From the NCBI RefSeq assembly GCF_037996645.1, contig NZ_JBBMXV010000003.1, positions 496,001-560,000 of the forward strand: a stretch of 64,000 bases of DNA. Direction: 5' to 3'. Below the pieces are notes generated by a model. That model ran no database searches, had not been told where the DNA came from, and worked only from the letters and a program-made list of their open reading frames with translations. This document shows positions 29,350 to 62,962 of this stretch, piece by piece. The stretch is from Halalkalicoccus tibetensis (lineage in GTDB: Archaea; Halobacteriota; Halobacteria; Halobacteriales; Halalkalicoccaceae). Each line of letters opens with the position of its first letter. Positions within the stretch are counted from its first letter, which is position 1. The translations under genes and the position numbers were made by a program.

Positions 29350-30417
29350 GTGTATCGGGACCAGACTGTCGGTGTCGTTATTCCTGCATACAACGAGGAA
29401 GGATTCATTGGGGGTGTACTCAGAGACATCCCCGAATACGTTGATCGGATCTACGTTATCGACGATTGTTCGACTGATAAAACATGGGATGAGATCATAT
29501 CCACTGCTCAGGAGGTATTAGGTAGCAAAACTGCTTATGTAGAAGAGCAGATCAACACCGCGAACAAGCAGATTGCTACTGATGGTGGGACACTAGCTGG
29601 TCGCGCGTTTGTCCATGAACCAATCGGATGTGTCCTACCGATTGAACACCTCTCAAATTTCGGTGCAGGAGGCGCAATCAAAACAGGATACCTTGCGGCA
29701 TTACAGGATAAGACTGATGTCGTAGTGACTATCGACGGCGATGGTCAGATGGATTTGGACTATCTTCCTCGACTACTTGACCCGATCGTCAATGGCAAGG
29801 CTGACTATGCTAAAGCCAACCGTCTTCTCTATCAAGAGTACCGGCAGGGTATGTCTGGGTGGCGATTTTTCGGGAATTCAATACTGACCTTCCTTACGAA
29901 GATCGCAAGTGGTTACTGGAAGATGATGGACCCTCAGAATGGGTACACAGCGGCTTCCCACCATGCATTGGACAATATCGGTGTCGAAGGGATGTATGAG
30001 TACTATGGCTACTGCAACGATATTTTGGTAAAGTTAAATGCCAAAGGGCTTCGCCTTGCCGACGTTGCTATCCCGGGCCAGTACGGGGATGAAGAAAGTA
30101 GCATCCGTTATCCTGAGTATATTCGGAAAGTCTCCTCAATGCTTCTTCGAAACTTCCTGTGGCGACTAAAGATCCGATATTTCGTGCTTGACTTTCATCC
30201 ACTTGGACTGTTCTACCTGTTTGGCGCGATTACCGCAGTCTCCGGGTTCACCGGGATGAGTTGGTCGACACTAGGATACCTGCTCTTTGATCAAGACCTG
30301 TTCATCCGTATGGCGCTTAGTACTTTGTTGTTTTTGATGGGCAGTATGTTCCTCATGTTTGCGATGTTGTTCGACATGCAAGCTAACGAAAATCGAGAAC
30401 TACAGGTCTATGAATAA
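29350..30417 (+). CDS. Family 2 glycosyltransferase with membrane anchor
   Basis: A 355-residue GT2 enzyme. The GT-A opening VGVVIPAYNEEGFIGGVL, the IDDCSTDKTW nucleotide-sugar segment and the DxD-type TIDGDGQMD are present. Between the last two is an unusually long insert of about 50 residues (SKTAYVEEQINTANK). The C-terminus has two transmembrane helices (residues 281-345). It resembles polyprenyl-phosphate sugar transferases acting at the inner face of the membrane. The start is GTG at 29350. Its end overlaps the deacetylase start by eight bases. Likely the first sugar-transfer step in the glycan. Confidence 0.9.
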   Translation: MYRDQTVGVVIPAYNEEGFIGGVLRDIPEYVDRIYVIDDCSTDKTWDEIISTAQEVLGSKTAYVEEQINTANKQIATDGGTLAGRAFVHEPIGCVLPIEHLSNFGAGGAIKTGYLAALQDKTDVVVTIDGDGQMDLDYLPRLLDPIVNGKADYAKANRLLYQEYRQGMSGWRFFGNSILTFLTKIASGYWKMMDPQNGYTAASHHALDNIGVEGMYEYYGYCNDILVKLNAKGLRLADVAIPGQYGDEESSIRYPEYIRKVSSMLLRNFLWRLKIRYFVLDFHPLGLFYLFGAITAVSGFTGMSWSTLGYLLFDQDLFIRMALSTLLFLMGSMFLMFAMLFDMQANENRELQVYE

Positions 30418-31306
30418 GCACACCACTGGGGAGAAATTCCTCTGCCTGACGCTTGACCTTGAGAATGACTGGTACTTCGACGAACCGGGGTATGATCATC
30501 TCACGTTCGAATACATCGATACGTTCATCGACCTCATTAATGATCTAGATGTCCCTCTCAGCGTGTTCGTCGTTGGACAAACACTAGAACAATACCCTGA
30601 AGAGATCGATCGTCTCTCGAATCAACTTGAGTGTGAGTTTCACCTTCACTCATACCAACATGATACGAGTAAAAATTATGACTTCCGGGAAGAAGTCATC
30701 AACGGAAAAGAGGCCTACCGAAATCATTTCGGGAGGAACCCAACTGGGTATCGGGCACCACAGGGCAACATCGCAGAACACGAGCTGAGTCTCCTTGAGG
30801 AGCTGGGATTTGAGTTCGACTCCAGCATTTTCCCCTCATATCGGCCAGGTGTCTACAATAACCTATCTGCACCATTGACGCCGTACACTCCAGCAGGGGC
30901 AACCTCACTGCTAGAGATTCCTCCTGGAGCATTCTCAGGTATCCGGATCCCTACTTCCCATAGCTACTTCAAGCTCATTGGCCGGTCGCTGTCATCATAC
31001 CTTTCGGTCTCGCCGCTTCCGGAGGTCCTCGTCTACAGTATCCATCTTCAGGACCTCTTTAAAACGGCGTCTCACGATCACTTGCCAGTCCCGAAACGGT
31101 GGATCATGAAGCGTAACCTCAATAACGCAGAGCGGATGCTTCGAAAGAACATTTCAACTCTCCTATCGCGGGGCTACCAGCCGAGAACGATGACTGATAT
31201 ATACAGTGCACATACTAGGGATGATAGCTACGAGTCCCAAACAAATGCCCCGAAAGATCATCTCGATCCGTCTCCTGTTTGGGCCTCGGCCGAGAACGAC
31301 GACTGA
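30410..31306 (+). CDS. Polysaccharide deacetylase (NodB-type)
   Basis: A 298-residue NodB-fold deacetylase removing N-acetyl groups from sugars. Visible motifs are the variant metal Asp in LTLDLENDWYF, the histidine motif HLHSYQHD and the GYRAPQGN arginine motif. There is no signal peptide, so it acts in the cytoplasm, probably on a nucleotide- or lipid-linked sugar. The ATG at 30410 overlaps the upstream GT2 stop by eight bases, a coupled operon. Two downstream genes (formyltransferase and ATP-grasp ligase) act on amines, so the deacetylase could create the amine they modify. Confidence 0.88.
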   Translation: MNKHTTGEKFLCLTLDLENDWYFDEPGYDHLTFEYIDTFIDLINDLDVPLSVFVVGQTLEQYPEEIDRLSNQLECEFHLHSYQHDTSKNYDFREEVINGKEAYRNHFGRNPTGYRAPQGNIAEHELSLLEELGFEFDSSIFPSYRPGVYNNLSAPLTPYTPAGATSLLEIPPGAFSGIRIPTSHSYFKLIGRSLSSYLSVSPLPEVLVYSIHLQDLFKTASHDHLPVPKRWIMKRNLNNAERMLRKNISTLLSRGYQPRTMTDIYSAHTRDDSYESQTNAPKDHLDPSPVWASAENDD

Positions 31307-31379
31307 CCGTTACTATTTTCCTGGGCGACGACAGTTGCTGATTCAGCAGGGTTAAGTCTCTGACGCGCCATTCCACTAT

Positions 31380-32069
31380 ATGACCGATGTCGCTGTATTT
31401 TTAATCGAGAGCGACGGGTTAAAGGGTCGAACTGTCGTCGAACGGTTCATTTCCTCAGTTAATTACCCTGACATTGACATTCGTGTCGTCGTTGACGGTC
31501 CGGATGGGAAGGCGATCCAAACGTTAGATCGGCTTGAGATTCCTTACACAGTAGCCGCTGATCCAGCAGCACCGTCTGACGCGATTGAGCGTGTGACCTC
31601 TAATGATGATGGAATCCGATATCTGATCACCTGCGGCTGGGTCCACAAAATCCCAAATACGTCGATATCGATGGCGGATAACGCTATCAACTGTCATAGC
31701 TCATATCTCCCCGGTTACAAAGGCCGATGTACATATCGACCACAGTGGGCGCATGCCGAATCTAAAGGCGGTGCAACGATTCATTTCTTGACAGAGAAAT
31801 TCGACGAAGGCGCGATAATCTGCCGAGAGGAATTTGTGATTTCCTCCTGGGACTCTCCTCTTGATATTGCCTACAAATATTCTGATATTACAACACCACT
31901 GCTTCGTGAAGCAATGCTTCTGTTAGATGAGGGATTCTCGGGAAAATCTCATGATGGCGGGCGATATTACCCTACTATCCCTTGGACGACTACTATTGCC
32001 CATGGTATCATTAACCACATCTCGCGAGGATTCGGATCAGATTGGCGCTGGGAGATTGAGCCTTCATAA
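31380..32069 (+). CDS. Formyltransferase-family enzyme, probable sugar N-formyltransferase
   Basis: A 229-residue protein containing the formyltransferase fold. The active-site region NAINCHSSYLPGYKG provides the Asn and His of the Asn-His-Asp triad, and KFDEGAII provides the Asp. A hydrophobic N-terminal strand DVAVFLIESDG fits the N-terminal subdomain. There is no C-terminal OB-fold domain as in methionyl-tRNA formyltransferase, and the location in a glycan operon suggests N-formylation of an amino sugar with N10-formyltetrahydrofolate. The target sugar cannot be named. A purine-type GART role is unlikely because of context. Confidence 0.85.
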   Translation: MTDVAVFLIESDGLKGRTVVERFISSVNYPDIDIRVVVDGPDGKAIQTLDRLEIPYTVAADPAAPSDAIERVTSNDDGIRYLITCGWVHKIPNTSISMADNAINCHSSYLPGYKGRCTYRPQWAHAESKGGATIHFLTEKFDEGAIICREEFVISSWDSPLDIAYKYSDITTPLLREAMLLLDEGFSGKSHDGGRYYPTIPWTTTIAHGIINHISRGFGSDWRWEIEPS

Positions 32070-32175
32070 AACAAATACGCTTAACCAGATCGACAACAGT
32101 TATCGGATGATGACTCAACATAGGATTGCACACGTAGTCCGGACAAGACCAGAACCGATTTTTCATCTCTAATAT

Positions 32176-33348
32176 ATGGGTGATGTACTCGTTACCGATG
32201 GACGGACACTCTCAGCACTTGCTGTCATTCGGTCGCTGGGAGAGAGTGGATTGGAAGTTCATACCGGCGACGCCTTCTCATCAACAATCACGTCCTATTC
32301 TAAATATACTGACTCAAATATCGTCTATCCATCAGCGGACAATTCTCCACACGGGTTTATTGACGAGATCGTCGCAAAGGCAAATGAGGAAGCATACGAT
32401 CTCATCGTCCCGGTTCGAGACGAAACAACGTTATTACTCTCACAGTACCGATCAGAGCTACCCGCAAGTACAGATGTTTTCGTAGCGGATCATTCGATTA
32501 TCGAACAGTTATTGGATAAAGGAGAGACGATGAAATTAGCCAGCCAGTATGGGGTTTCGATTCCTGTGACCTACTATCCCTCTGAGTCGGGTCTTAAAAC
32601 CGTTCGAGATTCGGTTGAATATCCCGTTTTGATAAAACCTCGCCGTAGTTCGGGCTCTAGAGGCATTCAGTATGCTCATTCAGAGACCGAGTTACTGCAG
32701 CGATATGAGGCAGTAAGCAAGGAGTACGACAACCCAATCGTGCAGGAGTACGTTAGCCACGACGGTGGTCACTACAGCATTGGTACCTTATTCGATCAAG
32801 ACTCGAAGCCTGTTGCACTACACGTCTATAAGGAAACAAAGCAGTATCCTCCATCAGGTGGGCCGGCGGCGACGGCTACGAGCGTCGCTCCAGATGAGTG
32901 GGTATGGGACATAATCGAGTTACTGAAGCAGGTTGATTGGATCGGCCCTGCCCATATGGACATACTGTTTGATCCCGAGACCTCGGAATACAAACTGCTT
33001 GAAATCAACCCTCGACTCTGGATGTCACTGAATTTGACGGTACAATCCGGTGTCGATGTTCCATACCTACTTTATAAACTATCAACAGAGGGTTCAGCTG
33101 ATCCAGTTCGTAGCTATACGGCCGGAATCGATTACCGGTGGATCCTTCCGAACGAACTCCTCTGGGGGCTCGCACAGGACCAAAAGGTGAGTGCTGCTCG
33201 GGAACTTCTCCGGTATTCTGGTCGGCAAACCTGTTATGGAGTGTTATCACGAACGGATCCACTCCCTGTCATCGGCGTAGCTGCACAGAGTCTTCAGTTC
33301 CTCAAGGATCCTGAGAAACGGGCTTCTATTTTTGATCGCGGTTGGTAG
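32176..33348 (+). CDS. ATP-grasp carboxylate-amine ligase
   Basis: A 390-residue ATP-grasp protein of the carbamoyl-phosphate-synthase-like type. The layout is an N-terminal Rossmann-like part (VLVTDGRTLSALAVIRSLGE), an ATP-binding lysine in VLIKPRRSSGSRG, and the magnesium motif LLEINPRLWMS. Such enzymes activate a carboxylate as acyl phosphate and couple it to an amine, often adding amino acids to sugars or small metabolites. It shares the TDGRTLSA/TGLNSHSY-type opening and EINPRxW motif with the second ATP-grasp gene at 61491. The context is amine decoration of a surface glycan. Confidence 0.88.
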   Translation: MGDVLVTDGRTLSALAVIRSLGESGLEVHTGDAFSSTITSYSKYTDSNIVYPSADNSPHGFIDEIVAKANEEAYDLIVPVRDETTLLLSQYRSELPASTDVFVADHSIIEQLLDKGETMKLASQYGVSIPVTYYPSESGLKTVRDSVEYPVLIKPRRSSGSRGIQYAHSETELLQRYEAVSKEYDNPIVQEYVSHDGGHYSIGTLFDQDSKPVALHVYKETKQYPPSGGPAATATSVAPDEWVWDIIELLKQVDWIGPAHMDILFDPETSEYKLLEINPRLWMSLNLTVQSGVDVPYLLYKLSTEGSADPVRSYTAGIDYRWILPNELLWGLAQDQKVSAARELLRYSGRQTCYGVLSRTDPLPVIGVAAQSLQFLKDPEKRASIFDRGW

Positions 33349-33813: not shown

Positions 33814-34830
33814 ATGAGAATACTCGTCCAGGCCTCACATCCCGCCCACGTCCATTTCTTCAAACACTTCATCTGGGAGGCTAATAAAGATGGACACGAC
33901 CTAAAAGTTATTTCGAATAAACGACCAATGGTCCGAGAACTGCTCGAGAGATACGACATCGACTACAAAGTCGTATCAGAACCAGCTGACTTCATTGTAC
34001 TGAGTCAGTTGCGATTCACCCTAGGTACGTATCAGGTTGCAAAGGAGTTCGATCCAGATGTACTTCTCTCTGTTGGTGGTACATCAGTCGCGCACGCTTC
34101 TAAATTCATTCGTGGCCGATCGATCGTTTTCTATGATACGGAACATGCAACGGTCCAGAACTCGATAACGTACCCGTTCGCCGACCGTATCTATACACCT
34201 GACTGTTACCAAGGAGACATCGGAACAAACCAGATCCAGTATCCTGGTTATCAGGAACTCGCGTACTTGCACCCGAATCGATTTACACCGGATCCCACCA
34301 TCAGGGATCTCGCAGGTCTTGGTGAGGACGAGCGGTTCGTTATCTTGCGCTTAGTGTCATGGGAGGCTATACACGACAGAGGAGATAGCGGATTCGATAA
34401 TGTCAAAGACGTTGTCCGTGCGTTAGAGGAACGTGGGGTACGCGTTCTGATCACCTCGGAAGCAGAACTTCCCCCTGAACTCCAAGATCACCGTGTAGGT
34501 GTTCCTCCTGACCGAATTCATGATCTGATGTACTATGCCGATTTGTTCATCGGAGAAAGTGCTACGATGGCAACCGAAAGCGCAGTGCTCGGCACCCCTG
34601 CAGTGTTTGTCTCATCAAGCCGACGGGGGTATACGGACGAACTAGAAGAGAAGTACAGGCTGGTATTCAACTTCTCTGACGATGATCGGCAACATCACTC
34701 CCTTGATAAGGCGCTCTCCATCCTCGAAGGATACGATCCAGAAGTGTGGGACAGTCGCCAGGAACGCATGTTGAATGACAAACTCGATACGACGGAGATG
34801 ATGCTCCAAGAGATTCTCGAAGCTAAGTAA
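33814..34830 (+). CDS. DUF354 family glycosyltransferase-like protein
   Basis: A 338-residue protein with the GT-B-like fold of DUF354, related to UDP-GlcNAc 2-epimerase and MurG-type enzymes. The N-terminus MRILVQASHPAHVHFFKHF and the TLGTYQVAKEFDPDVLLSVGG region are characteristic, and the C-terminal Rossmann part has FIGESATMATESAVLGTPAVF, the usual nucleotide-binding loop. DUF354 genes are a constant feature of archaeal surface glycan loci. The activity is not firmly known for the family. Confidence 0.9.
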   Translation: MRILVQASHPAHVHFFKHFIWEANKDGHDLKVISNKRPMVRELLERYDIDYKVVSEPADFIVLSQLRFTLGTYQVAKEFDPDVLLSVGGTSVAHASKFIRGRSIVFYDTEHATVQNSITYPFADRIYTPDCYQGDIGTNQIQYPGYQELAYLHPNRFTPDPTIRDLAGLGEDERFVILRLVSWEAIHDRGDSGFDNVKDVVRALEERGVRVLITSEAELPPELQDHRVGVPPDRIHDLMYYADLFIGESATMATESAVLGTPAVFVSSSRRGYTDELEEKYRLVFNFSDDDRQHHSLDKALSILEGYDPEVWDSRQERMLNDKLDTTEMMLQEILEAK

Positions 34831-41029: not shown

Positions 41030-42496
41030 CTATGTAACCGCACGAACGATCCTTTGGACATCTAGTAGACCAGCAAGTATGGAGAGCACTGCCCAGACAA
41101 TTACACCAACCGCGACTACAAGCAGAAGGGTCACCCACCCCTGAACATATCCCAGTAGAAGGAAGACTACCGTGCTCATTACCCCTGTTATCACCACGAT
41201 CGTGGCAGTGTTTTTCAGCAAATACGGAACTCGGAGATCAAACTCTTGATGGATGATATAGACACTTGCAATTGTATACAATGAGAAGGTGGTTATTGTT
41301 GCTATCGCTGCTCCGACTACGCCAATCGTCGGTATGAGCACTATGTTGAGACCAACGTTCAGGACCGCTGTTATGCCCCTTACGATAGCGCGAGCACGCG
41401 CCCGTCCAAGGAAGTCCAAGCCGTGACTTGTGATGTCCATTACGGCAATCAAAACTGCGTAGAGGCTAAGCACTTGGAGAACAGGAACTGCGTCGATATA
41501 CTCGATGCCGAAGACCAATTCAATGAGTGGGTCCGCGACAAGGACGAGCCCGGCAGCTGCAGGCGTATACAGCAGCAACGAGTGAACAAGCGACGTTTCA
41601 TAGAGCCGTGCCGCTCCATCAACGTTTCCGGCGGCTTTTTCGGCCCCGAACGTTGGGCTGATCGTGAATCCAAGTGCTGCTGCCGGCGTCTGTAGGAAAT
41701 CAATGATCTGGTTTGAGACGGCATAGAAGCTCACGGCAGCGGGGTTGAGAAAGAATCCTACCAGAAGTGTGTCTACCCTACTATCCAATTGCTTCGCCGC
41801 CTGTGTTAGCATCAATGGTACCGAGTACTCCGCCATCCGACGTTTGAGACCGTGCTCCATCTCAGCGGCCGCTTCGAATGTCCGGTAGTACAATAGATAA
41901 ATAACCACCAGACCGAACAGTGCGGCGAGAAATGATCTAAGGGCATAGCCGCCGAGTGCCCCTATTGCTCCAAACCCCGCGAGGACTAATCCGATTGCGA
42001 AGACGACCTTCCCGACACCTTGGATGATCTTGACAACAGATGCAAGCTGTATAGCCTCGAATGCTTGTAGTATGGAACGAGCGTAGCCAGTCAATACGTT
42101 GAAAATCAAGTAGACCACGCCCACCAGAAGGAAGGGTGCCAGCTCGGGTTCATCCAGTCGATTTGCTATCAGTTCATGTCCAACCGTCATGACGGTCGCC
42201 ACGCTCGCAACGAGAACAAGAAGTAAAATAGACGATGTTCGCAGAATATGTGGTAGCTGTGTCGGGTTGTCTTCTTTATATTCGGCAATGTATCGAGCGG
42301 CTGACTCCGGGACGCCGAGCTTAGCAAACATTTTCGAGATCTCGACGACAGCTATCGCGAGGAAAAGCAACCCATATCCGTTCGGATCAAGGAGACGAGC
42401 GAGTATGACAACAGTCAATGCACTACAGACTGCATGGATTATTTGCGCCAGAAACTCCGCTCGGAATCGGTTTCCGATACTGGAGACCAAACTCAC
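41030..42496 (-). CDS. Oligosaccharide flippase (Wzx-like, polysaccharide exporter family)
   Basis: A 488-residue, 12-14-helix membrane protein of the MATE/MOP-type oligosaccharide flippase family. The N-terminus (FLAQIIHAVCSALTVVILARLLDPNGYGL) and the internal SVPLMLTQAAKQLDSRVDTLLVG segment are typical. It flips lipid-linked oligosaccharides to the outside. It begins a minus-strand operon with the GT4 at 42609 upstream of it, and is convergent with the GT-C-like gene. It completes a Wzx/Wzy-type route together with the O-antigen-ligase-like protein at 18203, though the two are 22 kb apart. Confidence 0.93.
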   Translation of the reverse strand: MSLVSSIGNRFRAEFLAQIIHAVCSALTVVILARLLDPNGYGLLFLAIAVVEISKMFAKLGVPESAARYIAEYKEDNPTQLPHILRTSSILLLVLVASVATVMTVGHELIANRLDEPELAPFLLVGVVYLIFNVLTGYARSILQAFEAIQLASVVKIIQGVGKVVFAIGLVLAGFGAIGALGGYALRSFLAALFGLVVIYLLYYRTFEAAAEMEHGLKRRMAEYSVPLMLTQAAKQLDSRVDTLLVGFFLNPAAVSFYAVSNQIIDFLQTPAAALGFTISPTFGAEKAAGNVDGAARLYETSLVHSLLLYTPAAAGLVLVADPLIELVFGIEYIDAVPVLQVLSLYAVLIAVMDITSHGLDFLGRARARAIVRGITAVLNVGLNIVLIPTIGVVGAAIATITTFSLYTIASVYIIHQEFDLRVPYLLKNTATIVVITGVMSTVVFLLLGYVQGWVTLLLVVAVGVIVWAVLSILAGLLDVQRIVRAVT

Positions 42497-44616: not shown

Positions 44617-45375
44617 CTACGCTCTGGCGATCTGGCCGTTCACTGTAGTGATCTCTGCTATGAGGGATGTGTATGCAGCTAGAAGTGGGTATTGCGTAGA
44701 GCAATCACGATACAAATACTCATGAAATGCATAGTTCTCACTACGTGGATGTTTTCGAGAAGTGGTCTGTATATGATGTTGGTGCTCCTCGATCCAACTG
44801 TTAGTACGTGTTTCGTACTCATGGAGTGTTTCGTATACTGGGTGCAGCTCATCAAACGACGGATCACGGTGCAGCAGCTGTTGAATTTCTCTTAGCCCCT
44901 GGCGGATTTCACGGATACTGACGGCTGCTTCTGTAAGTTGATCATGTTCTGTATTGAGGTCCTGAAGAAGTTGTTTGCGTGCATCCCATTCGCGCTTGCC
45001 TGCTTGGAGCACCGCTTGTTTCAGTTGTGGTGTGAGAGATTGACTGGTTGTAAGCGCTGTTCGTATCTCTTCACCTAACTCAGCACCCAGATGAATATCC
45101 AGTGGCTCGTCGTAGACTGCTTCATAACGGGGCACATTTACCACTGTCTCATCATAAATAGTGATTATCTTCTGGCAGGAATTATTCGCCGACTGACTCG
45201 AATTTACCGCAGAGGATTTTGGCTGGAAATAAATTTGTCCATTCTGGCCCGTATCTATCTCTATGATTTGATCGATGAACCGCTTGAAGGCTTTTTGCTC
45301 AACAGTGACTTGCTTCTGCTCTTCGCTCACAACCGCCACTGCATCCGAGAGTTGTTTAGTTCTCATTTTGGCCAT
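44617..45375 (-). CDS. Coiled-coil hypothetical protein (DUF7260-like)
   Basis: A 252-residue mostly helical soluble protein. Coiled-coil segments are visible at residues 15-45 and 120-185 (AAVSIREIRQGLREIQQLLH). A central region with VPRYEAVYDEPLDIHLGAEL separates them. It resembles the haloarchaeal DUF7260 group, but I am not certain. No catalytic residues or membrane helices are seen. It stands alone between the YdjM-like and deacetylase lipoprotein genes. Confidence 0.75.
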   Translation of the reverse strand: MAKMRTKQLSDAVAVVSEEQKQVTVEQKAFKRFIDQIIEIDTGQNGQIYFQPKSSAVNSSQSANNSCQKIITIYDETVVNVPRYEAVYDEPLDIHLGAELGEEIRTALTTSQSLTPQLKQAVLQAGKREWDARKQLLQDLNTEHDQLTEAAVSIREIRQGLREIQQLLHRDPSFDELHPVYETLHEYETRTNSWIEEHQHHIQTTSRKHPRSENYAFHEYLYRDCSTQYPLLAAYTSLIAEITTVNGQIARA

Positions 45376-45523: not shown

Positions 45524-46819
45524 TCAGAGATCCTCCTGGCTGTCCAGTAAGTCCGAGGGAGTGACAACTTGAACATCGCTCTCCTCGATGTAGTCAAGCA
45601 GCTCCTCAAGTTCTTCAGTGGTCATATCTGCCAGTGGGTCGTCTTCGATTTCGTTTTCCGGGACGATTCCATGTGCGAGTCCGATTGCAAGTTGGTTGTG
45701 CTCCTCAGCGATATCGATCATGGAGGTAAAGCCCTCAAGGTCATGCATGTCAACTCTCGAAAGATGCATTGGATCCGTGAACGGCACAGCGTTAGGTGTA
45801 CCACCAAAATACGAACTCAGATCGTGATACTCACGGGTGATCTCGACGACCTCTTCGTTCGTATTATGATACGGGACGAACATCGACCGTGCCCCATCAG
45901 GGAAGCCACGTTCATCGAGATATTCATAGTCTGATTCGATAACTTGACGGATCGATTCGGGATCATTGAGCTCCATGAACGCCTCCCCTTCAGGATGCGA
46001 AGAGATGTCCCAGCCCGCATCGCGCATTTCGCGGAGATGATCGATCGTCATACGATCTTCGCGGTTGAGCGAATCAGGGACGACAGATGCAGTAGCTGAC
46101 ATACCGCGCTCTTCAAGAAGAGGGAGTGCGTTTTCGTACTGACTTTCGACCCCGTCGTCAAACGTCAGCATTACATAACCTTGATCGGCGGCGGGAGTCA
46201 TCCGGAGATCATCGACCCAGAAGCGAATTTCCTCTTCATCTTGACTTTCGATAAGAATCTGGATCTCTTGAACATCATCGAGAAATGGTTCGCCTACTTG
46301 ATTGGTATAGCCGACGTCCATTCGAAGCCAGCCTTCATATGTACCGACAATTGTTCGGGTACTTTCGAGCTGATCAGCTTCGCCGGGCGCAAGTATTCGG
46401 ACAGTAATGCCAACAGGACGGGGGTTTTCAACTCGAACGGCAAGTGAAAGGTGGTGTCCTTCCATGTCCAGACCATCGGGATACGCGCGAAACATGCCTG
46501 CAACGTTGCCTGCATTTTCGATACGTGGCACTTGCGAGCCTGTAAGCGCTTCATCCTCATCAGGTGTGATATCACCTTCAAGAGCAGCCCACTCATCGAG
46601 ATCTTCGAAGTCATCAACGACTTCACCGTGATCGATCGCGGGTGGTGTTGCGTCTTGCTCTTCATTGTCATCGACAGGTGCCGTGTCATCGCTGTCTTCT
46701 CCGTTATCGTCGCCTCCTGGTGTGGCGTCCGAAAACTGGTCAGTACATCCAGCTGTCAGAGCGAGTGAGCCGGCACCGAGCGCGGTTATGAACTGCCGTC
46801 GATCAGTTTGATCGTCCAT
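45524..46819 (-). CDS. Polysaccharide deacetylase Tat lipoprotein
   Basis: A 431-residue exported enzyme. DRRQFITALGAGSLALTAGC is a Tat signal with lipobox; an acidic Asp/Asn/Glu linker follows. Residues 60-205 are a beta-sandwich resembling a carbohydrate-binding module (HLSLAVRVENPRPVG, EIRFWVDDLRM). Residues 210-425 are NodB-like: VMLTFDDGVESQYENA provides the catalytic Asp pair, WDISSHPEGE the metal His region. The ATG at 46819 is preceded by AAGGAGGAGGTG, a strong ribosome-binding site; the GTG just before it is less likely. It acts outside the cell, unlike the deacetylase at 30410. Confidence 0.92.
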   Translation of the reverse strand: MDDQTDRRQFITALGAGSLALTAGCTDQFSDATPGGDDNGEDSDDTAPVDDNEEQDATPPAIDHGEVVDDFEDLDEWAALEGDITPDEDEALTGSQVPRIENAGNVAGMFRAYPDGLDMEGHHLSLAVRVENPRPVGITVRILAPGEADQLESTRTIVGTYEGWLRMDVGYTNQVGEPFLDDVQEIQILIESQDEEEIRFWVDDLRMTPAADQGYVMLTFDDGVESQYENALPLLEERGMSATASVVPDSLNREDRMTIDHLREMRDAGWDISSHPEGEAFMELNDPESIRQVIESDYEYLDERGFPDGARSMFVPYHNTNEEVVEITREYHDLSSYFGGTPNAVPFTDPMHLSRVDMHDLEGFTSMIDIAEEHNQLAIGLAHGIVPENEIEDDPLADMTTEELEELLDYIEESDVQVVTPSDLLDSQEDL

Positions 46820-47398
46820 CACCTCCTCCTTATTCTCAAATAGACTTCGTTCATTGCAGCCTAATTTTTACATTCATCTGAATTATGAATAAAGCAACTG
46901 TTTCGCGGAGACAAACAGTCTCTGCTAAAAAGTGTTAGAGTGGCACTCAAGTGGCCAGCAACGAATATTTGAGCCGTGAACGGAGTAATCTGGCTCAATT
47001 AGCTATATTATAAGGTTTGGTACTAGGCACTATACATCCCATTTCTTCCTACTGACGTCGTTCACTCCTTGAGGGTTAGCTTCCTGTTTTAACAGATATG
47101 CGCACGTATCCACTAGGAGCCCAGTCTCTGTAGGGTGGATTGGTGTGTTCCACCCCTCTCTGCTTGAAGTCCCGAGAACAAATGTTCCATGCTACATTGG
47201 CGCTGTTATCGGCCGTTAGACTGCAGGCGAGACTGAGTGTTTGCAGATCTACGGATCATTGACCAAAACGCCACCGCTGCGCATTTTTCTCCTACTGTTC
47301 TATCGGTTCAATAGTGATCCTGCATAGAAGTTGAGACATAGGATATAGTAGCTCCTACCAACGATCTCTCCTATTGGTTGTTATAGTCGTGCTACAAA
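46820..47398. other. Intergenic stretch with one hairpin
   Basis: No gene. A perfect 7-bp hairpin with a 9-base loop lies at 47133-47155 (GGGTGGA and TCCACCC arms). The rest is AT-rich. Confidence 0.4.
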
Positions 47399-47798: not shown

Positions 47799-48934
47799 CT
47801 AATATTCATATACTTCATATCGAGAGTTACCATTTACTTCGAGATCATCAACTGTCACTGGACCTGCTCCCTGTGTCACTGCAATACCATCTCTGACCTG
47901 GTCGCTCAATTCCATCGTAACATCGGCGATTACTGCTGATTCGACATTCGGGAGTATCCGAAGTGCTTCTGTTACGGGTGCATCCATATCAATATCGCAA
48001 TTACGTACTTCCATACCTACACCATTATCGAGGCGAATCGGACGTTGAGCACCGAACCCCTCAAATGGCTCGTCCACAATGAACTGGGCACCCTCAATAG
48101 TGCTGCCATCACCCTTTAATCGAACACCAGCAACATTCGCGTTTTCAAAAACACCGCCCTCAACATGAACACTACCATTTGCACCAGAGACGTATAATCC
48201 GTTATCAGGAAATGGTCCAACGTGTACGTCTCGAATTGTTATATTTCCTTGATGATAATCGCTCACTAGGAGGCCCGTCCCGCCGTTACCATTGTTTGTA
48301 TCGACATCCCCATCTGAGATATCGATATTCTCAACAATACCCGTTCCACTATTAGTCTGTAGTCCTACAAGGAGGGATCCTTTGCTTGCTGTGTCATGCG
48401 TACCAACTATATTGATACCACGTGCTATAAGATTGTTACTTGCTTGAAGCTCCAAAGCTCGCCCTCCTTATTCTCTCTGGAAATATCAAACGTAAGACCG
48501 TCGATTTGAAGATCATTAATAGGGCTCTGATAGGTACCGAGTTTGAATACATATCCATTGGTCGGAGCAACACTAATCGTCGCATTTTCTCCGGTTATCC
48601 CGAACTTATCATAATTGGCAATACGGAACTGGCCATCCGTAAAATAAATACCTTCAGGAAAGTGAACAAGAGTACCGTCCTCGGCAACTTTATTGAGAAT
48701 CGGAATAACTGAACTATCTCCACTATTATCGGCACCGGCCTCGACAATATCGACAACGTTTGAATAGCCCGAGGAATCTTCCGGTATTCCACCATTATTA
48801 TTTTCTATGTTGCTGTTATCGGGTGGGCCCTCATCCGCATTTGCGGATGTAACAAGCGATGTTGTCAGGGCAAATCCAGCAACCGCTTTACAGTATAATC
48901 GTCGGCTTCTGTGTCTATGGTTATGCTCTTGCAT
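47799..48934 (-). pseudogene. Beta-helix surface protein interrupted by a frameshift
   Basis: Two consecutive frames form one protein. The first, starting at ATG 48934 (MQEHNHRHRSRRLYCKAVAG), carries a twin-arginine-like signal and the beta-helix cap region VVDIVEAGADNSGDSSVIP. It drifts into another frame at about 48452, near GELW. The second frame continues the helix coils (ELQASNNLIARGINI, GNITIRDVHVGPFPDNG) to 47799. Restoring one G (GAGGCTTTGG in place of GAGCTTTGG) would give GEALELQASNN, a seamless helix. The gene is inactivated, or the base was missed in sequencing. Intact, it would be a 378-residue secreted polysaccharide-binding protein. Confidence 0.75.
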
Positions 48935-49157
48935 GCGTAACTCCAGAAAAGTTGATAATACCAATAATTAAATAACTATCGATAAACATTTCAGAGCTCA
49001 ATTCGAAACTGTATATGATGATTCGTTACTAATTATTAACTAGAAATACGATTATATGAACGAATAATATCCATAATTTCTATAACAGCCATAACAAACA
49101 ATTACCTGATAACTCTACTGAAAATATATAATATATTCTACAAATACCGGTGGTTTA

Positions 49158-61490: not shown

Positions 61491-62696
61491 TTATGGCCGT
61501 CTGGATTTTCGAATAGCCTCTCGGACCCCATAGACAATCGGTAAGGGATCGTCGAGATAGACGGTATCGAAGTGAGGCTCGGCCACGATCGATAAAAGAA
61601 CGTCACTGATCGAAGACATGAATGAGGGAGGTTCAACAAGGGTCGAATCTGTTTGTACGAGACTTGCTAGATACTTCAACTCACCGTACAGATAGTGGCT
61701 ACCGACACCGACTTTGTAGCCCGGTTCGATCAGATCTCCTTGTTCGGTCGCCAGAAGCCAGAAATCATGCGGAAAATCCGCGCCTGCCCGAACCGCACAT
61801 GGAAGCGATTGCCACATGCGTGGGTTGATCTCCGTGAGTTTGAACTCACCAGTTTCAGCATCCCGCATATACTCGATACAGGCAAGGCCATGCCAGTCGA
61901 GTGCATCGAGTAGTGTTCGACCCACCTCTTCGAGTTCCGGGATATGCACTGACTTCCGATACACACCGCCACCACCAGTGTATGAATCGGCTCGGATCTG
62001 ACGGTGCTGGAACGTTGTTTTTGCTTCCCCGTGGTCGTACAACGCGCCGAAGACGTATTCATCGCTGCTGTGGACATACTCCTGTACAATCGGTGTGTGC
62101 TCCATCTTTTCACACAGTACCGCCACATCCGGCTCTTCGCCCGGCTGGAGGTGTTCGATCGTCTTCACGATCCCCATGTCGTGTGGGGTATAGGAGTCGG
62201 CGTACTCCTCGGCTAGTAGGTTGTACCGAGACTTGACGATGAGCTCGGGACTCCAATCGTCGACCTCATCGAGCAGCCGTGTCTCGGGGACAGGTACGCC
62301 GGCTTCTTCGGCAATTTCGCTCAGACGCAACCGGTCATGAACGTTTTTGAGTGACTCGAATGAGGGGGTGACGACTGAGACGTACTCTTCGAACTCCTCT
62401 TCATATTTCGAGAGCAGATAGGTGTCTTGGGGCTGTGCCGGGATGATGGTCCGAATATCTGGTCGAGCCGCAATTCCGACTAATGCGTCCTTGTACGCAA
62501 TGAGGTCGTCCTCGGCGGCCGGAATGATGATCGTCTCGTTACTGTAGCGTCCTGCATAGACGGGAAGATCAGCCCGATCCGATGCGAGGACCGTATGAAT
62601 TCCGTGCCGAGAAAGCGAACGCGCTGTAATGTAACTGTGGGAGTTCAACCCTGTTGGTAATAGAACGGCATCTCGTTCACTACCTGTATTCGACAT
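61491..62696 (-). CDS. ATP-grasp carboxylate-amine ligase (second copy)
   Basis: A 401-residue ATP-grasp enzyme with the same domain plan as the gene at 32176. The N-terminus reads LLPTGLNSHSYITARSL and IIPAQPQDTYLLSKYEEE; the ATP-binding Lys lies in LIVKSRYNLLAEEY and the magnesium motif is KLTEINPRMWQSLP. It ligates a carboxylate to an amine or similar. The ATG at 62696 is used because the earlier frame starts (62720) have no site. It is divergent from the DUF1616 gene. Its position at the end of the window suggests a second polysaccharide-type locus beyond the border. Confidence 0.88.
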   Translation of the reverse strand: MSNTGSERDAVLLPTGLNSHSYITARSLSRHGIHTVLASDRADLPVYAGRYSNETIIIPAAEDDLIAYKDALVGIAARPDIRTIIPAQPQDTYLLSKYEEEFEEYVSVVTPSFESLKNVHDRLRLSEIAEEAGVPVPETRLLDEVDDWSPELIVKSRYNLLAEEYADSYTPHDMGIVKTIEHLQPGEEPDVAVLCEKMEHTPIVQEYVHSSDEYVFGALYDHGEAKTTFQHRQIRADSYTGGGGVYRKSVHIPELEEVGRTLLDALDWHGLACIEYMRDAETGEFKLTEINPRMWQSLPCAVRAGADFPHDFWLLATEQGDLIEPGYKVGVGSHYLYGELKYLASLVQTDSTLVEPPSFMSSISDVLLSIVAEPHFDTVYLDDPLPIVYGVREAIRKSRRP

Positions 62697-62962
62697 ATTA
62701 CTTCCCATATTGTATACCATCTTATATGTATGTTGGTATTCGGGCTCCTACTCCGGTGTTGATTGCGAATAGCTGTAGTGTGATCTTCGGTAGCAAACAC
62801 CCTTATTCTGATAGATCGTCTTCTTGGTAGCGATTTTCGACCAAAGAACTCGTGTAGCTCTCTGTGTGGAGTAGAGAGATCGGTCTGCGGTCTCCGCGTG
62901 ATTGATTGTTCTTTACCAATCTATACCGACTGATTTTTTAGGTCCCATATGTAATGGGATAT

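Follow-up and report, generated by a model that had tools for sequence, protein, structure and literature searches.

What would three enzymes of amide and amine chemistry be doing side by side in the glycan locus of a haloarchaeon? We asked this of a 64,000-nucleotide stretch of the Halalkalicoccus tibetensis genome (contig NZ_JBBMXV010000003.1, positions 496,001 to 560,000 of the forward strand; here, the window), in which a first-pass annotation had read three consecutive plus-strand genes as a deacetylase, a formyltransferase, and an ATP-grasp ligase that lack signal peptides and may together decorate amino sugars of the cell surface with formyl or amino acid groups. The three open reading frames (ORFs) are present exactly as it placed them, each scores above at least one curated Pfam cut-off, and a Kyte-Doolittle scan found neither a hydrophobic N terminus nor a transmembrane stretch in any of them. 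The best explanation, to which we give about an even chance, is that these genes belong to a cassette that swaps the N-acyl group of a lipid-linked sugar.

In such a cassette, a GT2 glycosyltransferase encoded just upstream would transfer an N-acetylated amino sugar that is probably an aminouronic acid from a uridine diphosphate (UDP) carrier to dolichol phosphate (DolP), and the deacetylase, a CE4 enzyme, would take off the N-acetyl group. The formyltransferase would then cap the freed amine using 10-formyl-tetrahydrofolate, a DUF354 enzyme would add the next sugar, and a flippase would export the product for surface glycan assembly, while the ATP-grasp enzyme would make a further amide. Our firm prediction is an N-formyl amino sugar.

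Deacetylase and formyltransferase genes are repeatedly paired

Relatives of the window deacetylase (E value, 1e-25) were found at 41 places in 39 of 391 genomes of the class. We fetched these deacetylase loci and several formyltransferase loci (numbered with the prefix L; genomes carry the prefix G) and labeled the neighbors with home-made profiles and clustering; genes were taken as the longest ORFs of at least 100 amino acids, among which spurious ORFs may hide some neighbors. The next gene on the same strand within 400 nucleotides encoded a formyltransferase for 10 of 41 deacetylases, compared with 0 of 367 other genes in the same loci (Fisher P = 3.6e-11, a value that overstates independence because the set contains related genomes). 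The 41 deacetylases counted here include a second, divergent one in L097 that lies outside the 41 search places and omit that of L088, which has no downstream ORF on the same strand.

Formyltransferases linked to deacetylases form two strongly separated clades, and a tree that joins them in a single clade was rejected; the pairing therefore arose at least twice. On the deacetylase tree, which has three very long branches, the formyltransferase label requires five changes, at least two of them forced by well-supported branches. These two results offset the inflated P value of the pairing.

At an E value of 1e-20, the window formyltransferase matched in only 4 of 293 genomes of the order, its own included, and a formyltransferase profile at 1e-15 had a match in 24 of the 391 class genomes. 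A pattern scan of named genomes matched only Natrialba swarupiae, whose strain ESP3B_9 shares the gene order of the window. Haloarcula halobia XH51 also carries a deacetylase and a formyltransferase annotated as neighbors. When plasmids were searched with the formyltransferase by tblastn, none of the 55 records covered 80% of the query; the best 15 of them were at most 33.6% identical to it, and the annotated ones were PurU/PurN-like.

A recurring gene order places the pair in sugar assembly

The gene order that recurs among these loci is a nucleotide-sugar dehydrogenase, a GT2 glycosyltransferase, the deacetylase, a slot for an acyl-adding enzyme, often an ATP-grasp gene, and a DUF354 gene. 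Of 40 loci, 31 have a GT2-class gene no more than 5 kb from the deacetylase; a dehydrogenase lies that close in 13 and a DUF354 gene in 11. In the window, the GT2 and deacetylase genes overlap by 8 nucleotides, the deacetylase ATG falling within the final codons of the GT2 gene, and an overlap of the same length is present in L057, L060, L072, L078, L079, L080, L089, and L098; gaps of 73 and 106 nucleotides separate the deacetylase from the formyltransferase and the formyltransferase from the ATP-grasp gene, all three being on the plus strand. Because the same arrangement recurs in other genera, we do not attribute it to chance. Three dehydrogenases beside the GT2 gene in sister loci matched TviB best among equivalog models, at scores below the TviB cut-off. 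TviB is the UDP-N-acetylglucosamine (UDP-GlcNAc) 6-dehydrogenase of the Vi antigen, and the best scores of these TviB-like enzymes are our reason for proposing an aminouronic acid as the substrate.

The claim of a glycan module is partly supported, by a conserved unit, an independently repeated deacetylase-formyltransferase pairing, and a context of lipid-linked sugar assembly in the cytosol. The GT2 and DUF354 partners, the exchangeable slot, and the sugar-supply genes elsewhere in the genome had no place in the first-pass annotation.

Active sites are intact, and known subfamilies fit poorly

The window deacetylase scored 51.7 bits against Polysacc_deac_1 (PF01522; curated cut-off, 23.1), and its residues D16, E18, H80, H84, R115, and H212, which we take to be the CE4 metal and catalytic residues, were invariant in 26 of 26 sequences; its motif 1 reads D-x-E rather than the usual DD. 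The formyltransferase (Formyl_trans_N, PF00551; 53 bits against a cut-off of 26.1) retains N104, H106, and D142, presumably the Asn-His-Asp triad of formyltransferases, in 16 of 16 sequences. In the ATP-grasp protein (CPSase_L_D2, PF02786, 31.8 bits against 19.8; ATP-grasp_3, PF02655, 30.5 against 23.2), E276 and N278 were invariant in 15 of 15 sequences, and we assume them to be the metal-binding Glu and Asn of the family. Judged by these residues, all three look like working enzymes.

The best solved relative of the GT2 profile was the DolP-mannose synthase 5mlz (E = 1.3e-10), and hydrophobic windows begin at residue 317; this match, together with the C-terminal membrane segment, identifies the protein as of the DolP-sugar-synthase type. 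It matched the AglJ model (TIGR04182) with an E value of 2.3e-16 but at 60.1 bits, far below the cut-off of 325. The deacetylase scored below the cut-offs for the polysaccharide deacetylase of the XrtA system (TIGR03006; 54.2 bits against 276.2) and for NodB (13 bits against 240).

The formyltransferase scored far below the curated cut-offs for PurN (37 bits), PurU (32.3 bits), Fmt (36.3 bits), ArnA (32.8 bits), and dTDP-Qui4N formyltransferase (32 bits). Two other formyltransferase-fold proteins were matched in the same genome and read by eye as PurU and a PurN-PurH fusion; with these elsewhere in the genome and the scores below the cut-offs, a purine-pathway role was rejected. A FolD-family gene is present in the genome, and a formyl-folate donor is therefore plausible. 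For the ATP-grasp protein, no PurT model appeared among the best 25 of 42 NCBIfam matches, and we rejected a PurT-like role; no characterized relative was found, the best solved one being 2pn1, which has no stated substrate. All of this bears on whether the three enzymes might serve small-molecule metabolism apart from glycans, for example, purine or siderophore synthesis. Their folds are widely used, and PurN and PurU models are among the formyltransferase matches; given those low scores and neighbors that are glycan genes, we consider such a role very improbable.

A resemblance to the arn operon of Escherichia coli deserves more weight. That operon holds the same three enzyme classes, a formyltransferase (ArnA), a polyprenyl-phosphate sugar transferase (ArnC), and a CE4-like enzyme (ArnD), and the window GT2 is weakly similar to ArnC. 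By the same logic, a nucleotide-linked amino sugar would be formylated only transiently: once the GT2 had passed the sugar to the lipid, the CE4 enzyme would deformylate it, and the sugar, its amine now free, would be exported or would serve the ligase. ArnD is annotated as a deformylase. Against this reading, hhalign found next to no similarity between ArnD and the window deacetylase (probability, 1.9; E = 0.026), too little to indicate a relationship; with the ArnA score also far below its cut-off, the case for homology to Arn was weak. Moreover, 31 of the 41 deacetylases have no adjacent formyltransferase, so a formyl group is hardly their substrate, and of the ORFs that we scanned, none beside the window genes was identified as an aminotransferase. 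We regard transient formylation as improbable; as we read the cassette, it has enzyme classes in common with the Arn pathway but follows a different logic.

The acyl-adding enzyme is exchanged between loci

Under the proposed swap of the N-acyl group, the enzyme that follows the deacetylase would determine the group installed. Elsewhere, the slot or its vicinity holds a GNAT-like or a hexapeptide transferase, and FemAB/Acetyltransf_6 proteins lie near the deacetylase in further loci. Counting all four acyl classes, the next gene belonged to one of them for 17 of 41 deacetylases and for 5 of 367 other genes; only the formyltransferase class was fixed beforehand, the GNAT-like, hexapeptide, and FemAB-like classes having been defined after the neighbors were viewed. 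Formyltransferase, GNAT-like, and hexapeptide genes never occurred together in one of the 40 loci, while a FemAB-like gene co-occurred with each. The sharpest swap is between the sister genomes G363, G325, and G207: between deacetylase and ligase, the first carries a formyltransferase on the opposite strand, the second a hexapeptide transferase, and the third nothing, even though the G363 deacetylase shares 75% identity with each of its counterparts in G325 and G207. The exchange suggests a way in which surface chemistry is varied while the sugar backbone stays unchanged.

The ATP-grasp ligase and its target

A search of the 391 genomes found 12 proteins closely related to the window's ATP-grasp protein (E < 1e-90), itself among them. 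Eight lie within 3 kb of a deacetylase from the 1e-25 search; those of G363, G207, and G325 stand beside a divergent deacetylase, and that of G431 is near FemAB-like and DUF354 genes. Of the 14 weaker matches, 2 (G246 and G290) are beside a deacetylase of that search. In the 40 loci, an ATP-grasp gene occurred with a formyltransferase in four, with a GNAT-like protein in two, with a hexapeptide transferase in one, and without any acyl class in three.

Does the ligase compete for the freed amine? It might attach an amino acid there, in which case that amino acid, or else a different residue, would be formylated; this is close to what the first-pass annotation envisaged. The ATP-grasp gene directly follows the deacetylase, with no acyltransferase between them, in L071 and L080, and it neighbors all eight copies (seven genomes) of the window's formyltransferase clade. 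Yet in 7 of 40 loci the ligase accompanies one of the three transferases, which would be its rivals for the same amine. We think this alternative unlikely, on a par with the independent branches considered below. Of the two decorations originally proposed, the N-formyl amino sugar remains the best prediction, and the co-occurrence speaks weakly against amino-acylation of the same amine.

Because the ATP-grasp gene co-occurs with these transferases rather than replacing them, the ligase may act at a second site, perhaps the C6 carboxylate. That its amide is more likely to be at C6 than at the same amine is our tentative view, held at somewhat less than even chances. Threonine at position 6 of an aminouronic acid is known in archaeal glycans, and the enzyme that attaches it in Methanococcus maripaludis was described as then unidentified in a 2010 review (PMC2952790). 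As a type of enzyme, the ligase subfamily offers a testable candidate for uronic-acid amidation. A broader proposal, which we find possible but rather doubtful, is that haloarchaea diversify their surface glycans by means of a modular cassette: the DolP-sugar synthase and the deacetylase would be its fixed parts and would expose an aminouronic amine, an exchangeable enzyme would set the acyl group (formyl, acetyl type, or other), and a dedicated ATP-grasp enzyme would amidate the C6 carboxylate. On this proposal, uronic-acid amides of archaea, the Methanococcus threonine among them, could be the work of enzymes of this ligase subfamily's type.

PHP-domain hydrolases were seen beside the ATP-grasp gene in two deacetylase loci (L086:8686-9339 and L101:5998-6693). 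In three genomes, the formyltransferase-ATP-grasp pair is clustered with a CapA-like (PGA_cap) protein (L056:6668-7855, L059:6997-8205, and L063:10375-11511; Pfam was run on the L056 member only). Two more divergent ATP-grasp genes lie by the end of the window, at 61491-62720 (minus strand) and G000:C3:560101-561252, about 6 to 11 kb before another GT2 gene whose product is 67% identical to the window's.

Sugar supply and the source of the amine

The same genome carries a further group of genes at about C3:334-342 kb, named here from their BLAST relatives. An aminotransferase and a UDP-GlcNAc 3-dehydrogenase-like gene lie at about C3:334-337 kb; the group also has two nucleotide-sugar dehydrogenases and one gene each of the hexapeptide-like, DUF354, and GT4 types.

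Besides the relatedness of the genomes noted above, several observations weigh against the acyl-swap cassette. No dehydrogenase stands next to it in the window, the relatives being about 190 kb away. Ten of 40 deacetylase loci lack both an acyl class and an ATP-grasp gene within 5 kb, and L087, L088, and L090 had no acyltransferase within that distance. The GNAT-like family, present in 6 of 40 loci, has a Pfam E value of 0.0058, below the cut-off. Finally, loci of the window's formyltransferase clade (FT-I) in G087, G363, G344, and G563 hold a UDP-GlcNAc 3-dehydrogenase-like gene that either replaces a close deacetylase or accompanies it; among these genes, only that of G563 passed the curated cut-off, and an aminotransferase is present in G087 and G563. 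In some species, the amine formylated by this clade may thus be a 3-amine made by transamination. The main caution is accordingly that the formyltransferase is not securely tied to the deacetylase alone, because this 3-amine route is possible within its clade.

Carried further, this would give two independent branches, with the formyltransferase acting on a 3-amino sugar made by a dehydrogenase and an aminotransferase and the deacetylase acting on another residue of the same glycan. The four FT-I genomes and the genes at C3:334-337 kb are consistent with it; the repeated adjacency of deacetylases to two formyltransferase clades is left unexplained. We judge two branches unlikely.

Relation to known systems

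The enzyme families are known, as is the logic of NodC-NodB-NodA. That system has a glycosyltransferase that makes a GlcNAc product, a CE4 deacetylase that frees the amine, and an acyltransferase that re-acylates it (PMC5380657); it is bacterial and uses a chitin oligomer and a fatty acyl donor, whereas here the GT2 is of the DolP-sugar type, a formyltransferase takes the place of NodA, and an ATP-grasp enzyme is added. In the Caulobacter holdfast, the cytosolic polysaccharide deacetylase HfsH is paired with HfsK, a GNAT suggested to acylate exposed amines of a lipid-linked glycan; the text consulted names no formyltransferase or ATP-grasp enzyme, and the role of HfsK is itself unproven there (PMC5362036). 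By analogy, the cassette appears to work like NodC-NodB-NodA and the proposed HfsH-HfsK pair and is a member of neither.

Single elements have counterparts as well. AepG of Haloarcula hispanica is a DolP-sugar-synthase-type GT2 with C-terminal membrane segments that uses a uronic acid; it makes DolP-glucuronic acid rather than an amino sugar, and we liken it by description, not by sequence (PMC9943897). The O-antigen of the bacterium Pseudomonas aeruginosa PAK contains GalNFmA, an N-formyl aminouronic acid, in a passage that does not name the formylating enzyme (PMC4773840). On a haloarchaeal surface glycan, Halorubrum sp. PV6 carries an N-formyl sugar, 5-N-formyl-legionaminic acid, for which a formyltransferase gene is predicted; it belongs to a nine-carbon sugar pathway, and a deacetylase goes unmentioned in the text searched (PMC6137143). 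In our own set, the formyltransferases of L067, L109, and L110 are near a gene that reads by eye as a NeuB-type synthase, and they may be legionaminic-acid formyltransferases, as proposed in Halorubrum PV6.

Our literature search found no published description of a swappable archaeal cassette. If the acyl-swap reading is true, N-formyl sugars would be reached by N-formylation after deacetylation as well as by way of an aminotransferase. The cassette offers a gene-by-gene prediction for archaeal surface sugars, a field in which few pathways have been worked out.

Features of the window

Table 1. Predicted cassette genes and associated features, in window coordinates
Feature	Coordinates	Strand	Evidence
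GT2 glycosyltransferase, dolichyl/polyprenyl-phosphate-sugar synthase type	29350..30417	+	Glycos_transf_2, 62.8 bits; hydrophobic segment near C terminus
CE4-type polysaccharide deacetylase without evident export signal; probable sugar N-deacetylase	30410..31306	+	PF01522; invariant residues
Formyltransferase-fold protein; probable amino-sugar N-formyltransferase	31380..32069	+	PF00551; invariant residues
ATP-grasp ligase, PRK12767-like group; probable amide-forming enzyme	32176..33348	+	PF02786, PF02655; invariant residues; cassette-linked subfamily
DUF354 protein, glycosyltransferase-like; probable next glycosyltransferase of the cassette	33814..34830	+	PF04007, 60.3 bits (cut-off, 22); recurs in sister cassettes
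Polysaccharide flippase-like protein (Wzx/MurJ type); possible product exporter, cassette role inferred only	41030..42496	-	PF01943, 97.5 bits

Further genes on the minus strand of the window include one for a DUF7260 protein in the glycan locus (44617-45375) and one for a second protein with a polysaccharide-deacetylase domain (45524-46822), whose N terminus resembles by eye that of an exported lipoprotein and which could work on the glycan extracellularly. At 47799-48964, also on the minus strand, two ORFs overlap in different frames; together they read by eye as a single exported repeat protein that a frameshift may have split, and the ORF at 48425 has no Pfam match.

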